From assembly GCA_011390935.1 (NCBI GenBank), contig JAABRL010000012.1, positions 1 to 64,000 of the forward strand: a DNA stretch of 64,000 bases, given 5' to 3'. Both the position numbers and the translations under genes were made by a program. This stretch comes from Gemmatimonas sp. (GTDB lineage Bacteria; Gemmatimonadota; Gemmatimonadetes; Gemmatimonadales; Gemmatimonadaceae). Every line of letters starts with the position of its first letter. Position 1 is the first letter of the stretch. Below are positions 15,379 through 20,663 of the stretch, one piece after another. A model generated the notes under the pieces. That model saw nothing but the letters and a program-made list of their open reading frames with translations. It was not told the DNA's origin and ran no database searches.

Positions 15379-18312
15379 TTACGAGGAACGCGCGGAATCG
15401 TCGAGCGTGCGCGCGACCTCTTCAGTGCGGTAGGCTTCGATCACGTCGCCGACCTTGACGTCATTGAAGTTCTCGACGCCGATACCGCACTCGTAGCCTT
15501 CCTTGACTTCCTTCGCATCGTCCTTGAAGCGACGCAGCGAGCCGAGCGTGCCGTCGTACAGCTCGACACCATCGCGAACCACGCGGACTCGCGAGCCACG
15601 CGTAATGCTGCCGCTGCGCACGAGACAACCGGCGATCGTGCCAACGCGCGCGACCTTGAACACCTCGCGCACCTCGGCTTCGCCCGTAACCACTTCGCGC
15701 GACTCGGGGCGCAGCATGCCTTCGAGCGCCGAGCGCACATCGGCGACCGCTTCGTAAATGATGCGATACAGCTTGATGTCGACGCCTTCCCGCTCGGCGG
15801 CGTTTCGGGCGTTGTTGTCGGGACGCACGTGGAAGCCAATGATGATGGCGCCCGATGCCTTCGCGAGCAGGATGTCGCTTTCGGTAATCGCACCCACACC
15901 GCGGTGCACGATGTCGACCGACACTTCGCCGGTGGACAGCTGCCCGAGTGCGTCGGCCAGCGCCTCGGCCGGACCACCCTGGTCGGCCTTGATGAGCAGG
16001 CGCAGCTGACGCTTCTCGCCGGCCGCGGTCTGCGACATGAAGTCTTCGAGCGACACGTTGCCGCGCGATGTGCGACGGCTGCGTGCCTCACGATCGAGAC
16101 GTTCGCGGCGCTGCGCAATGTCGCGCGCCTGCGAGGCGTCATCGACCACGATCATCTGGTCGCCCGCCATCGGCACGCCAGGGAGACCGAGGATCTGCAC
16201 CGGAATGGCCGGACCGGCCGACTTGACGGTCTTCCCGCGCTCGTCGAGCAGCGCGCGCACACGGCCGGAGAACATGCCACAGATGAAGTCGTCACCGACC
16301 TTCAGCGTGCCGTTCTGCACGAGCACGGTCGCAACCGATCCCTTGCCCGGATCGAGCTGCGCTTCGACCACCGTGCCGGTGGCGTTGCGTGCCGGGTTGG
16401 CCTTGAGGTCGAGGATTTCGGACTGCAGCAGGATCTGCTCGAGCAGTTCCGGCACACCCGTGCCGTGCTTGGCCGAGATTTCCGACGAGAGCGTGGTGCC
16501 ACCGAAGTCTTCGAGCACCACCTCGTGCTGCAGCAGATCCTGCTTGACCTTGTTGGGATTGGCCTGCGGCAGATCGACTTTGTTGATCGCCACGATCATC
16601 GGCACGCCGGCACTCTTGGCGTGCGAGATCGCTTCGATCGTCTGCGGCATGACCTGGTCATCGGCCGCCACCACCAGCACCACGATGTCCGTGACCTGCG
16701 CACCACGCGCACGCATGGCGGTGAACGCCTCGTGACCCGGGGTGTCGAGGAACGTGATCATCTTGCCGCCGGGCAGCGTGACGTGATACGCACCGATATG
16801 CTGCGTGATGCCACCGGCTTCACCGGCAACCACGTTGGCCTTGCGGATGTAGTCGAGCAGCGATGTCTTGCCGTGGTCGACGTGACCCATGATGGTCACG
16901 ATGGCCGGGCGAGACACGAGCGACTCGGGCGTATCGACCACCGGCTCTTCACCGAGGTCGGCCGAATACTCCTCTTCCTTCACAGCCTCGAAGCCGAACT
17001 CGCTGGCAATGAGTTCGATCTGGTCGAAGTCGAGACGCTGATTGATGGTGACCATGAGGCCGAGCGTCTTGAACGCGAAGCCCACGATCTGCGTGGCCGA
17101 GATGCCGAGGATCTGCGCGAGTTCGGACACCGTGATGAACTCGTTGACGCGTACGGTCTTCTTTTCGCGCTCGGCGGCTTCGGCACGCTGCGCTTCCATC
17201 TCTTCGCGTGCATCGAAGCGACCACGACCTCGGCGTGCCCCACCGGGGCCACGCATGGCGGTCATCGTCTTGGTGATGTTCGCCGAGACGGCTTCCTGAT
17301 CGACCGATCCGCGCTTGCCTTTCTTGCCGCGACGCGGACCTGCCGCGCCCCCGGCGGGCGCGCCACCACTCATGCCGCCGGTATTGCCACCACCCGGCCC
17401 TCCGGCCATCGGCGCGCCGGGACGTCGATCGTCACGACGTGCACCGCCCGAGAGTCCACCGCCCGGCGCCGCACTGGCGATCGGCCGTGCGCCGAATGGT
17501 GCTGACGTGCGCCCACGGGGTGCACCAGGGGTGATCGGGCGCGGACGCAGCCGGGACGGCTCTGACGGCGTGGGGGCGGCCGGTGGCGCACTCGGCGACG
17601 CCGAAGCGACCGGAACCGGACGCGGCGCAGGCGGCGCTGCGGGCGGTGCCACCGGGGCGGCGACGGGCGTTTCAGGTGCCGGCACGGCTTCGGTCGTGGC
17701 GTTCGCGGTGGCGGCGGCCGGCGCAGTGGGCGCTTCCACGGCAGGCTCACGCTCGACCGCAGCGGCGGCGGCGGCGGCCTCCGCGGCGGCGCGCTCGGCC
17801 TCGGCCTGGCGCGCTGCTGCGAGGGCGGCCGCCTGTTCGGCAGCGGCCCGTTCAGCCGCAGCGGCCCGTTCGGCAGCGACCCGCTCGGCGGCTTCCCGCG
17901 CCGCCGCTTCGCGCTGCTCGGCTTCGGCTCGTTCCGCCTCACGCTGCGCTTCGACGGCCGCGACGGCTTCCGCCTCGGCCGCGGCTTCCTGCTGCGCGGC
18001 CTCGACATCGGCGCGGCGACGACGGCGCACGGCCGGCGTGGACTCATCGGACGTCTCGACCGGTGGCGCCTCGACCGGCTCCTCCGCCTTGGTGCGGCGA
18101 CGGCGCGGCTTGGCCTCCGGCACCGGGTTTGCCTGTTCCGCTCGCGTGCGCTTCTCACGCTCCCAGCGAACTCGGGCGCGCGCTACCTGGTCGTCCGTGA
18201 GCAGCGACATGTGGCTGCGTACCGGGACGTCCATTTGGCGAAGCAGGGCGATCACTTCATCGGCTGGAATGCCGAATTCACCCGCCATGTCATGCACACG
18301 AAGCTTGCTCAA
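15379..18312 (-). CDS. infB: Translation initiation factor IF-2
   Basis: GTPase that places fMet-tRNA on the 30S subunit. The protein has 977 residues. An IF2N helix region (1-55) is followed by a very long low-complexity linker (about 60-390) of Ala/Glu/Arg-rich coiled coil, then Pro/Ala/Ser and Gly-rich blocks, then a second IF2N domain (near 410-460). The G domain begins near 472 with GHVDHGKTSLLD (G1), DTPGHEAFTAMR (G3) and NKVDLP (G4), and domains II-IV complete the protein. The start overlaps the L7Ae-like gene by four bases. Confidence 0.97.
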   Translation of the reverse strand: MSKLRVHDMAGEFGIPADEVIALLRQMDVPVRSHMSLLTDDQVARARVRWEREKRTRAEQANPVPEAKPRRRRTKAEEPVEAPPVETSDESTPAVRRRRRADVEAAQQEAAAEAEAVAAVEAQREAERAEAEQREAAAREAAERVAAERAAAAERAAAEQAAALAAARQAEAERAAAEAAAAAAAVEREPAVEAPTAPAAATANATTEAVPAPETPVAAPVAPPAAPPAPRPVPVASASPSAPPAAPTPSEPSRLRPRPITPGAPRGRTSAPFGARPIASAAPGGGLSGGARRDDRRPGAPMAGGPGGGNTGGMSGGAPAGGAAGPRRGKKGKRGSVDQEAVSANITKTMTAMRGPGGARRGRGRFDAREEMEAQRAEAAEREKKTVRVNEFITVSELAQILGISATQIVGFAFKTLGLMVTINQRLDFDQIELIASEFGFEAVKEEEYSADLGEEPVVDTPESLVSRPAIVTIMGHVDHGKTSLLDYIRKANVVAGEAGGITQHIGAYHVTLPGGKMITFLDTPGHEAFTAMRARGAQVTDIVVLVVAADDQVMPQTIEAISHAKSAGVPMIVAINKVDLPQANPNKVKQDLLQHEVVLEDFGGTTLSSEISAKHGTGVPELLEQILLQSEILDLKANPARNATGTVVEAQLDPGKGSVATVLVQNGTLKVGDDFICGMFSGRVRALLDERGKTVKSAGPAIPVQILGLPGVPMAGDQMIVVDDASQARDIAQRRERLDREARSRRTSRGNVSLEDFMSQTAAGEKRQLRLLIKADQGGPAEALADALGQLSTGEVSVDIVHRGVGAITESDILLAKASGAIIIGFHVRPDNNARNAAEREGVDIKLYRIIYEAVADVRSALEGMLRPESREVVTGEAEVREVFKVARVGTIAGCLVRSGSITRGSRVRVVRDGVELYDGTLGSLRRFKDDAKEVKEGYECGIGVENFNDVKVGDVIEAYRTEEVARTLDDSARSS

Positions 18313-18716
18313 CCCTTCCTCCTCTGCGCGTCACGCGCCGCATCGCCGGAATCGAGCGTCCCCCCAGTGGAGAAATGCCCGACAGCGTCGCGGATCCCGC
18401 GCGCCAGCGCTTTATCTACTATACCGACCGCGGCGGTGGAATCACGTCCCACCACCGCGCCCAGCTCGGCCGCACTCGGCCACTCAAATATCTCGACCCG
18501 CTTTGCCCGCAGGATAGGCACCACCTTGTCAAGCGTGTGTCGCGAGACATCGACCGCGATGAGGGCCAGTACCACCGTGCCCTTTCGCGCTGCCTCCCGC
18601 ACCTGCTCCGCCCCGACGATCACCAGGCGGCCACGCACGCCAAGTCCTACCAGTCCCAGTACTTTCCGACGCACCGCCTCAGGGAGCCCCTCGGCAGGCG
18701 TCGATGCCTCGTCCAT
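18309..18716 (-). CDS. L7Ae/L30e-like ribosomal protein family (YlxQ-like)
   Basis: A 135-residue protein with the L7Ae/L30e/S12e fold pattern: GLGVRGRLVIVGAEQVREAARKG, ALIAVDVSRHTLDKV, and a C-terminal AVGIVDKALARGI. In many bacteria a small L7Ae relative (YlxQ) sits between nusA and infB, exactly as here, and binds kink-turn RNA. The N-terminal and C-terminal tails are charged and probably disordered. It overlaps infB, and its start codon touches the end of nusA. Confidence 0.8.
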   Translation of the reverse strand: MDEASTPAEGLPEAVRRKVLGLVGLGVRGRLVIVGAEQVREAARKGTVVLALIAVDVSRHTLDKVVPILRAKRVEIFEWPSAAELGAVVGRDSTAAVGIVDKALARGIRDAVGHFSTGGTLDSGDAARDAQRRKG

Positions 18717-20059
18717 CAGCTGCGCGACCCCTCGGATCCGCCCGCCGACTCGTCCACCTCTTCGGTCGTGAGCTCTTCGATGATCGCCATGATGCGATCG
18801 GCTTCCTCACCGGCGATGCCGGGGAGACGCACGAAGTCCTCACGCTCCAGATCCAGAATATCATTGAGCGTGCGATAGCCCGCCTCTTCCAGTACCGCGA
18901 CGGTGGCCGCCGGCATACCGGCCAGCTGACTGAGCGGCACATCTTCCTCGCCCTCTTCTTCCTCGGGGAGCGGCGCGAAGAGCGGCATATCCCCGCCCTT
19001 CTCGAGCCACTCGCGGCTGGAGTAGAGATCGATCTTCCAGCCGGTGAGCTCCGACGCCAGCCGCACATTCTGCCCGCTGCGCCCGATCGCCAGCGAAAGC
19101 TGGTCCTCGTCGACGACGGCCTGAATGGTGCGCGTGAGCGGGTCACTGAAGACGCGCGCCACACGAGCGGGCGCCAACGCCAGCTTGGCGAAGCGCTCCG
19201 GCTCGTCGGACCACGGCACGATATCGATCCGCTCGCCGCCCAGCTCGTTGACCACCGCCTGCACGCGCGCGCCCTTGAGACCGACGCATGCGCCCACCGG
19301 ATCGACGGCCGCGTCTCGCGACATCACGGCGATCTTGGTGCGGCTGCCGACTTCGCGCGCCGCAGCCTTGATCTCCACGATGTGCTGCTGGATTTCCGGC
19401 ACTTCGAGCTTGAAGAGCGCTGTGACGAACATGGCGTCGCTGCGGCTGAGAATCAGACGCGGCCCCTTGGGCGTATCTTCGACTCGCTTGAGCACGGCAC
19501 GAATCGTTTCGCCCTGATGGTAATGCTCGCGGTGGTTCTGCTCACGGTACGGGATGATGGCCTCGGCCTCCCGGAACTTGTTGAGCATGACCACGAGCTT
19601 GCCGCGCTCGATCTGCTGCACTTCACCGGAGAGCAGGTCACCCACGCGCTCGCTGAACTCATCCTTGATGCGCGTGCGCTCACCCTCTCGGACGCGCTGC
19701 AGGATGCGCTGCTTGGCGGCCTGGACGGCCGTGCGCCCGAACTCCGCGAACTCGACCGGGATTTCCATCACGTCGCCGAGCTGGAAATCGGGGTCTTCGT
19801 AGCGCGCTTCCTCGAGCAGCACTTCGCGCGAGGCATCGGTGACCTCTTCGACCACCGTCTTCAGGAGGACGATACGGATGGCGCCCTTGTCTTCGTCGAT
19901 CTCGATCTCGGCCTGCGCATTGGCGCCATGCTTCTTGGCCAGGGCGGCATGAATGCCGTCCTGCAGGAGTTCGTGCAGCTCGGCACGATCCATCTGCTTT
20001 GAATTGGCCAGCTCGCGGAATGCGGCGAGAATCTCGGCGGACCCGACCATCCGTGTCAC
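18716..20059 (-). CDS. nusA: Transcription termination/antitermination factor NusA
   Basis: RNA polymerase-binding elongation factor that controls pausing, termination and antitermination. The 447-residue protein has the N-terminal polymerase-binding domain (1-125), an S1 domain (about 130-200), two KH domains (about 220-350; VGACVGLKGARVQAVVNEL is the KH1 GxxG loop), an acidic linker (EEEEGEEDVP) and one C-terminal helix-hairpin-helix unit (GIAGEEADRIM). Its leader region holds a terminator hairpin, which is relevant because NusA itself could act there. Confidence 0.96.
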   Translation of the reverse strand: MTRMVGSAEILAAFRELANSKQMDRAELHELLQDGIHAALAKKHGANAQAEIEIDEDKGAIRIVLLKTVVEEVTDASREVLLEEARYEDPDFQLGDVMEIPVEFAEFGRTAVQAAKQRILQRVREGERTRIKDEFSERVGDLLSGEVQQIERGKLVVMLNKFREAEAIIPYREQNHREHYHQGETIRAVLKRVEDTPKGPRLILSRSDAMFVTALFKLEVPEIQQHIVEIKAAAREVGSRTKIAVMSRDAAVDPVGACVGLKGARVQAVVNELGGERIDIVPWSDEPERFAKLALAPARVARVFSDPLTRTIQAVVDEDQLSLAIGRSGQNVRLASELTGWKIDLYSSREWLEKGGDMPLFAPLPEEEEGEEDVPLSQLAGMPAATVAVLEEAGYRTLNDILDLEREDFVRLPGIAGEEADRIMAIIEELTTEEVDESAGGSEGSRS

Positions 20060-20062
20060 CCC

Positions 20063-20542
20063 TTAGCGTTTCCAGTGGAACGCGAGCCGCGCCTGCGTGA
20101 CGGCAGACAGCGGGAATCGGTATTCCACACCCTTGCCATCGCGCACAACCGCCTGCGTCGCGCCATCCTCACCATCCAAAGCAAGGATTTCGACTTCCTG
20201 TCGGCCCCCCGGGAGCGCGCCACAGGTGACTGTGGCATGCCGCCCGATGAACCGACGCCATTCGGACTCCGTGCGCAGCGGGCGATCCGCCCCGGGCGAC
20301 GACACCTCGAGCACATAGTGCTCCGGCATCCCCTCCAAGACATCGAGCCGGGCCTCGAGAGCCCGGCTCACCCGCGTGCAATCTTCCAGCGAGACCTTCT
20401 CGAGATCTCGACGTTCGACGCGAATCTCGAGGACCTGCCGAGCGCGTGACCCACCGCGCCGCAGCTCCACCAGATCATAGTCCAACTCGCCCAGCACTTC
20501 GGTGATGAGCGGTTCCAGCGAATCGCCTGCGTGCCCGGCCAC
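20063..20542 (-). CDS. rimP: Ribosome maturation factor RimP
   Basis: Needed for 30S subunit maturation. From the GTG at 20542 the protein is 159 residues, the usual length, with GDSLEPLITEVLGELDYDLVELRR at the N-terminus and YVLEVSSPGADRPLRTESEWRRFIG in the centre. This start is chosen over the in-frame ATG at 20584 because the upstream codons lie inside a terminator hairpin and because a GGAG stands 7 bases before the GTG. First gene of the rimP-nusA-infB-rbfA-truB-ribF transcript. Confidence 0.92.
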   Translation of the reverse strand: MAGHAGDSLEPLITEVLGELDYDLVELRRGGSRARQVLEIRVERRDLEKVSLEDCTRVSRALEARLDVLEGMPEHYVLEVSSPGADRPLRTESEWRRFIGRHATVTCGALPGGRQEVEILALDGEDGATQAVVRDGKGVEYRFPLSAVTQARLAFHWKR

Positions 20543-20559
20543 TTGAAACTCCAGAGAAC

Positions 20560-20588
20560 AAAAAAGTGTGGGGGCCATCCCCACACTT
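20560..20588 (-). terminator. Intrinsic terminator in the rimP leader (candidate attenuator)
   Basis: Stem AGTGTGGGG / CCCCACACT (9 pairs, 5-base loop) followed on the minus strand by six T residues. It lies between the promoter at 20635-20663 and the rimP start at 20542. The pgeF end at 20690 is upstream of that promoter, so the hairpin sits inside the rimP-nusA leader and is not simply the pgeF terminator. Confidence 0.85.
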
Positions 20589-20593
20589 CACAA

Positions 20594-20625
20594 CGCCCGG
20601 CGCACTCGAGATGAGCGTCCGGGCG
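20594..20625 (-). promoter_or_regulatory. Second leader hairpin upstream of rimP
   Basis: Inverted repeat CGCCCGG / CCGGGCG (7 pairs, 18-base loop) in the leader RNA between the predicted transcription start and the terminator hairpin. It may help or compete with the terminator fold. Only the pairing is seen; function is inferred. Confidence 0.45.
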
Positions 20626-20634
20626 TATTCATGT

Positions 20635-20663
20635 AACGTAGGAGGCGAGACGCGGAAGGTCAA
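20635..20663 (-). promoter_or_regulatory. Promoter of the rimP-nusA-infB operon
   Basis: Minus-strand -35 TTGACC (20658-20663), 17-base spacer, -10 TACGTT (20635-20640). Predicted start near 20628 gives a leader of about 85 bases containing two hairpins. Confidence 0.65.

Follow-up and report, generated by a model that had tools for sequence, protein, structure and literature searches.

Attenuators in rimP leaders have been published by Naville and Gautheret (2010; PMC2965389). Their general layout is a promoter, a hairpin and rimP, with no tRNA, and the accessible part of that paper gives the motif as GGGc(...)gCCC at a distance of 4-130 nt from the gene, proposes NusA as the effector and involves no antiterminator. 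In B. subtilis, NusA has been reported to control its own expression by stimulating termination in the nusA 5' leader (Mondal et al., 2016, via PMC12288461). A short transcript of the S. agalactiae operon ends 31 nt from the start site, and NusA feedback has been proposed there as well (PMC4448216). Rfam family RF01770 covers the gammaproteobacterial form, a tandem structure of 102 positions in which each hairpin ends as a terminator.

We compared these systems with the leader in front of rimP-nusA-infB in a 64-kb stretch of DNA from Gemmatimonas sp., family Gemmatimonadaceae, analyzed as a whole and called the window below. Of the features of published rimP leaders, a terminator with U-tract in the 5' UTR, a GGG...CCC stem and the lack of an antiterminator were found. 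As described for the general rimP leader in the available text of PMC2965389, a G-rich 5' arm and a C-rich 3' arm are followed by a U stretch, and the distance to the gene is within 4-130 nt. In contrast to the published GGGc...gCCC, the motif of the window reads GGGg...cCCC and forms part of a longer stem, GTGTGGGG. The pair next to GGG/CCC is thus G...C in the window, while leaders of sister family f2 such as L202 and L205 have GGGC...GCCC. The main text of PMC2965389, as far as it was available, does not name Gemmatimonadota. The original prediction had described a layout different from that of E. coli; the absence of metY stands, but the arrangement is the general one of PMC2965389 and no departure from it.

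Like the E. coli metY-nusA-infB operon, which has terminators t1 and t2 upstream of rimP and NusA-related control according to the accessible part of PMC6511841, the locus carries a terminator 5' of rimP; unlike in E. coli, there is a single terminator and no initiator tRNA gene in the leader. E. coli also carries a hairpin of the same kind, GGGC...GCCC-T7, before rimP. The RF01770 model did not match the window region at E up to 10, nor the rest of the genome; its gathering cut-off of 47 was not reached in the window, whereas the E. coli positive control scored 102 bits. What the window has in common with RF01770 is the location and the second terminator (GGGCUUUAGGCCCUUUUUUU in the E. coli K-12 leader, L270), but no T-run stands behind the upstream hairpin of the window (hairpin 1). 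Matches to Rfam Yfr1 (on the opposite strand) and Guanidine-II were below gathering scores and were judged to be chance. With the B. subtilis nusA leader, so far as the available source describes it, the locus shares a terminator in the nusA-operon leader, and the interruption of the distal U-tract is reminiscent of suboptimal terminators that are sensitive to NusA; in contrast, NusA dependence is experimental in B. subtilis and presumed here, and the hairpin here is strong.

The element belongs to the known rimP-leader kind, is outside the narrower RF01770 model and is ordinary in kind. What is new is how deep the conservation runs within a single phylum, together with the minimal leaders and the evidence from rimP loss.

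Leader anatomy and folding

The order on the minus strand of the window is murA, pgeF, leader, rimP, nusA, ylxQ (L7Ae-like), infB, rbfA and truB (Table 1). Here truB was assigned from the ORF translation, and the other operon gene families from profile matches. An L7Ae-like (YlxQ) RNA-binding protein is encoded between nusA and infB (18309-18716). A Shine-Dalgarno-like site and comparison with relatives point to GTG at 20542 as the rimP start. The original prediction had given the right coordinates for the leader element, and the two hairpins that it described, the second a terminator with six T ahead of rimP, are present in the sequence and on folding. Its distance of about 20 bases between T-run end and rimP start was close to the 17 nt measured. 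The lack of a metY tRNA was borne out by ARAGORN, which found three tRNAs in the window, all at 1472-1793, and none in the leader.

Table 1. Leader features and flanking operon genes, with positions in the window
Feature	Position	Strand	Basis
-35 element TTGACC	20658..20663	-	sequence; TTGAC-N17-TAnnnT in 98/117 distinct leaders
-10 element TACGTT	20635..20640	-	sequence; same 117-leader conservation count as for -35
Upstream hairpin 1	20593..20626	-	fold, -22.2 kcal/mol
Terminator hairpin 2, core GTGTGGGG/CCCCACAC	20563..20589	-	fold, terminator scan, conservation
T6 U-tract	20560..20565	-	sequence; T-run of 6 in 92/117 distinct leaders
Shine-Dalgarno-like GGAG of rimP (putative)	20549..20552	-	sequence, inference
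rimP, GTG start	20063..20542	-	Pfam RimP_N over cut-off; NCBIfam matches under cut-offs
nusA, NTD-S1-KH domains	18716..20059	-	TIGR01953, NusA_N, S1 and KH_5, all over cut-off
infB, downstream operon gene	15379..18312	-	TIGR00487 over cut-off

The promoter lies 27 nt past the pgeF stop and has a spacer of 17 nt, as do 97 of the 98 distinct leaders with a promoter. A TTGAC-type -35 and a TAnnnT -10 with a score of at least 8 were present in those 98 of 117 leaders, compared to 2.2% of 2340 mononucleotide shuffles. Describing the promoter as good was nevertheless generous: it is sigma-70-like and conserved, but matches 8 of 12 consensus bases, and a promoter scan of the window, which needs 9, listed no promoter.

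The 93-nt leader folds well below its shuffles (z -4.2), and each hairpin has a z of -3.7, hairpin 2 at -18.6 kcal/mol. The T6 overlaps the last stem pairs of hairpin 2 and is followed by a G at 20559, the distal interruption, and then by TTCT. A terminator scan picked up hairpin 2, but its 2 sites versus 1.2 expected in shuffles are not significant alone. According to a pattern search, the exact motif with the T-run occurs a single time in the genome of the window.

Ensemble folding of 95 distinct leaders, with dinucleotide-preserving shuffles as reference, showed that the terminator arm pairs downstream with a median probability of 0.9998 (minimum 0.02, in at least one leader). In 72 of the 95 leaders, upstream pairing of the nascent arm was below that of the shuffles, and in 23 it was above; for the window, the values were 0.003 versus 0.64 in shuffles. 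An antiterminator between hairpin 1 and the terminator arm was therefore rejected. Hairpin 1 is usually present, while its sequence is not conserved (pairwise identity 0.327 in this zone, 117 distinct leaders), and it was not strongly better than shuffles, with a median z of -1.25 and values below -2 in 26 of the 95 leaders. Hairpin 1 probably keeps upstream RNA off the terminator arm. Outside the family, 18 of 71 leaders are minimal, with the hairpin at most 16 nt from the -10 and the start codon at most 12 nt after the U-tract, which leaves no room for an antiterminator, or for a sensor beyond the terminator and RNA polymerase.

The U-tract abuts the rimP ATG, or comes within one base of it, in L202, L205, L213, L218, L226, L230 and L232. 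This leaves no space for a Shine-Dalgarno site and suggests an unusual translation start.

Conservation across Gemmatimonadota

A search of 179 family genomes with RimP gave a match in 158 of them, and 58 loci from named genomes were added. From 168 loci, one was dropped as a 10-base placeholder (L166) and six failed the RimP-placement filter (L033, L064, L073, L074, L078, L088); 161 leaders, 139 of them distinct, were retained. This family set includes a few sister-family loci from the named-genome search. A structure finder that requires a GGG arm, and no further sequence, detected the terminator in 160 of the 161 leaders, but in only 52 of 1610 dinucleotide shuffles. In the remaining leader (L040), the extracted segment was too short, and the element is present at locus position 2518. 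The check on hairpin conservation in relatives proposed with the original prediction thus came out in its favor. Conservation was the decisive test and, judged by this comparison of sequences, the leader element is not a chance match.

Among the 117 distinct leaders anchored on TGTGGG, mean pairwise identity was 0.998 for the 5' arm TGTGGGG, 0.965 for the 3' arm and 0.903 for the 7 nt after the 3' arm; these figures are conditioned on the anchor, which is absent from 6 of the 161 leaders (L040, L071, L072, L110, L117 and L161). Pairing is retained through other bases in L071, L072, L117 and L161, with rare departures such as TGTCGGG with CCCGACA (L117) and GCGGGC with GCCCGC (L072). The gap between the arms ranges over 4 to 8 nt within the family and varies more widely outside it. 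The GTGGGG/CCCCAC stem is nearly frozen in sequence.

The GTTCT after the U-tract (window 20555-20565) is common in relatives, with GTTC in 55 of the 117 distinct leaders, a recurrence that goes beyond the requirement for a U-tract. A reading of GTTCT as a boxA, that is, a NusB/S10 site, was dropped, as the 16S leader had no clear rrn boxA match. A further one-mismatch TTTTTTGTTCT lies at 1676-1686, in a stretch flanked by tRNA genes.

In sister families of the order, 35 of 36 leaders passed the structure finder, with cores of two types, GTGGGG...CCCCAC and GCGGGC...GCCCGC. Further out in the class and phylum, 39 of 40 leaders from more distant families passed, and GTGGGG was the usual core. 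Since the finder chose another hairpin in several order and class leaders, these counts were backed by reading the sequences; a motif scan for the core found it in 34 of the 36 order leaders and 37 of the 40 class and phylum leaders. The fetched sequences of L308 and L234 were without the element, L234 retaining just the 3' arm and U-tract.

When 298 genomes of the phylum were searched with a covariance model of the terminator (R1), 141 gave a match at E up to 1. All 120 matches with E up to 0.0102 were checked, and 108 were within 300 nt of RimP. The other 12 had no RimP place listed, so that none was far from a listed RimP; ten of these were 5' of nusA without a RimP gene, one was in G206, which has a shortened RimP, and two were at contig ends (G224, G120). 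Seven family genomes without a model match (G075, G141, G119, G107, G007, G151 and G064) were also without a RimP match, for which an assembly gap is the simplest reading. G196 had neither a RimP nor a model match. The title of the L083 record is Candidatus Kuenenia stuttgartiensis, but its nusA locus is of Gemmatimonadota type (86% NusA identity), and the contig has probably been mis-binned.

Loss of rimP upstream of nusA

RimP is widespread in bacteria. In 13 genomes of sister family f2 (G183, G193, G195, G207, G208, G211, G212, G214, G216, G218, G222, G236 and G366), rimP is absent, and promoter and terminator are retained directly 5' of nusA. Several f2 genomes lacked a RimP_N match; G366 was outside the RimP_N search and has no rimP at its locus. 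The RimP C-terminal domain gave no match better than E 0.26 in the 13 genomes, while positive controls including G197, G200 and G213 did match. The locus order is (murA-)pgeF-promoter-terminator-nusA, with no RimP homology and 113-225 nt between terminator and nusA; the G216 stretch shows nusA only. Downstream, ylxQ is present in all 13 and infB in 12, the G212 stretch ending earlier.

A NusA tree of 41 rows placed the rimP-less genomes in three separate groups, namely G236 with G366, then G183, G193 and G216 beside the rimP-bearing G197 and G221, and a clade of eight genomes. Because deeper families carry rimP, loss is the simplest polarity. The rimP losses seen in the loci L311-L314, L316-L319 and L321-L325 represent at least three lineages within this sister family of the Gemmatimonadales.

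Since the element is retained before nusA without rimP, it follows nusA and not rimP. The rimP-loss loci argue against RimP as the sensor and fit NusA-stimulated termination. The rimP-less form of the nusA leader is absent from the accessible part of PMC2965389, and full-text literature searches, judged by title and abstract opening, turned up no paper on it.

Two further observations concern RimP. In L315 (G206), a RimP-like reading frame at about 1640-2060 is shortened and lacks part of the N-terminal domain; the gene may be on its way to being lost. G253, G267, G270 and G274 of class-level family f5, with genomes 95-98% complete, had no RimP_N match and are possible further losses.

Proposed mechanism and alternatives

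We favor, with a probability of roughly 0.7, the reading that the element is an attenuator of the rimP-leader kind, by which NusA-stimulated termination would limit its own operon without an antiterminator. RNA polymerase would start at the leader promoter, and after a short leader a fraction of the transcripts would end at the GTGGGG/CCCCAC hairpin and U6, before rimP. Plentiful NusA, the product of the second gene, would increase termination and decrease readthrough into rimP-nusA-ylxQ-infB-rbfA-truB, and readthrough would rise when NusA is scarce. No antiterminator would take part, and hairpin 1 would shield the terminator from upstream RNA. The original prediction had suggested that premature termination could give autoregulation; phylum-wide conservation and the link to nusA strengthen this likely role, with NusA as the presumed controlling factor.

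The strong hairpin with its uninterrupted first six U could terminate without NusA. The terminator might set a fixed low readthrough with no feedback, which the absence of a visible sensor also favors. We consider such constitutive attenuation rather improbable, since the primary sequence is frozen beyond the needs of a stable stem and feedback by the same route is reported for B. subtilis in the available part of PMC12288461. Sequence-level freezing suggests specific recognition, and the stem might instead be recognized by another operon product (YlxQ/L7Ae-like, IF2, RbfA) or an unlinked protein controlling termination. In the covered rimP-less loci, ylxQ and infB also stay with nusA and the element, and their products may be effectors. 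However, the motif is the sole exact pattern match in the genome, literature searches found no published case, and the stem has no conserved bulge, whereas YlxQ-like proteins usually bind kink-turns; we regard this recognition as quite unlikely.

Feedback by RimP on its own leader, a possibility raised by Naville and Gautheret (PMC2965389, accessible part) and in keeping with rimP being the first gene in most genomes, is hardly credible given the 13 genomes that retain the terminator without rimP. The element could also be a plain 3' terminator of the upstream murA-pgeF unit, as in the window it follows the pgeF stop at a distance of about 100 nt. This is very unlikely, as it sits 3' of a conserved promoter and stays when the upstream gene changes to one for a cytidylate kinase (L065), an AIPR protein (L049) or a divergent protein kinase (L076). 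TGTGGGG-n-CCCCACA is a perfect dyad, as might befit a DNA operator for a repressor, but the variable arm gap, the T-run always on the rimP side and the one site in the genome of the window make an operator extremely improbable.

How the level of NusA, a general transcription factor, is set in the cell is a basic question. The frozen stems, the minimal leaders of about 30 nt and the rimP-loss lineages make it testable which product the leader senses, and also why the terminator stem is conserved in sequence. One tentative and rather doubtful answer to the latter is that NusA, or RNA polymerase with NusA, may read the GTGGGG/CCCCAC sequence itself and not only its stability. If true, this would be a sequence-specific, NusA-recognized terminator dedicated to nusA, not rimP, and kept phylum-wide through repeated loss of rimP.
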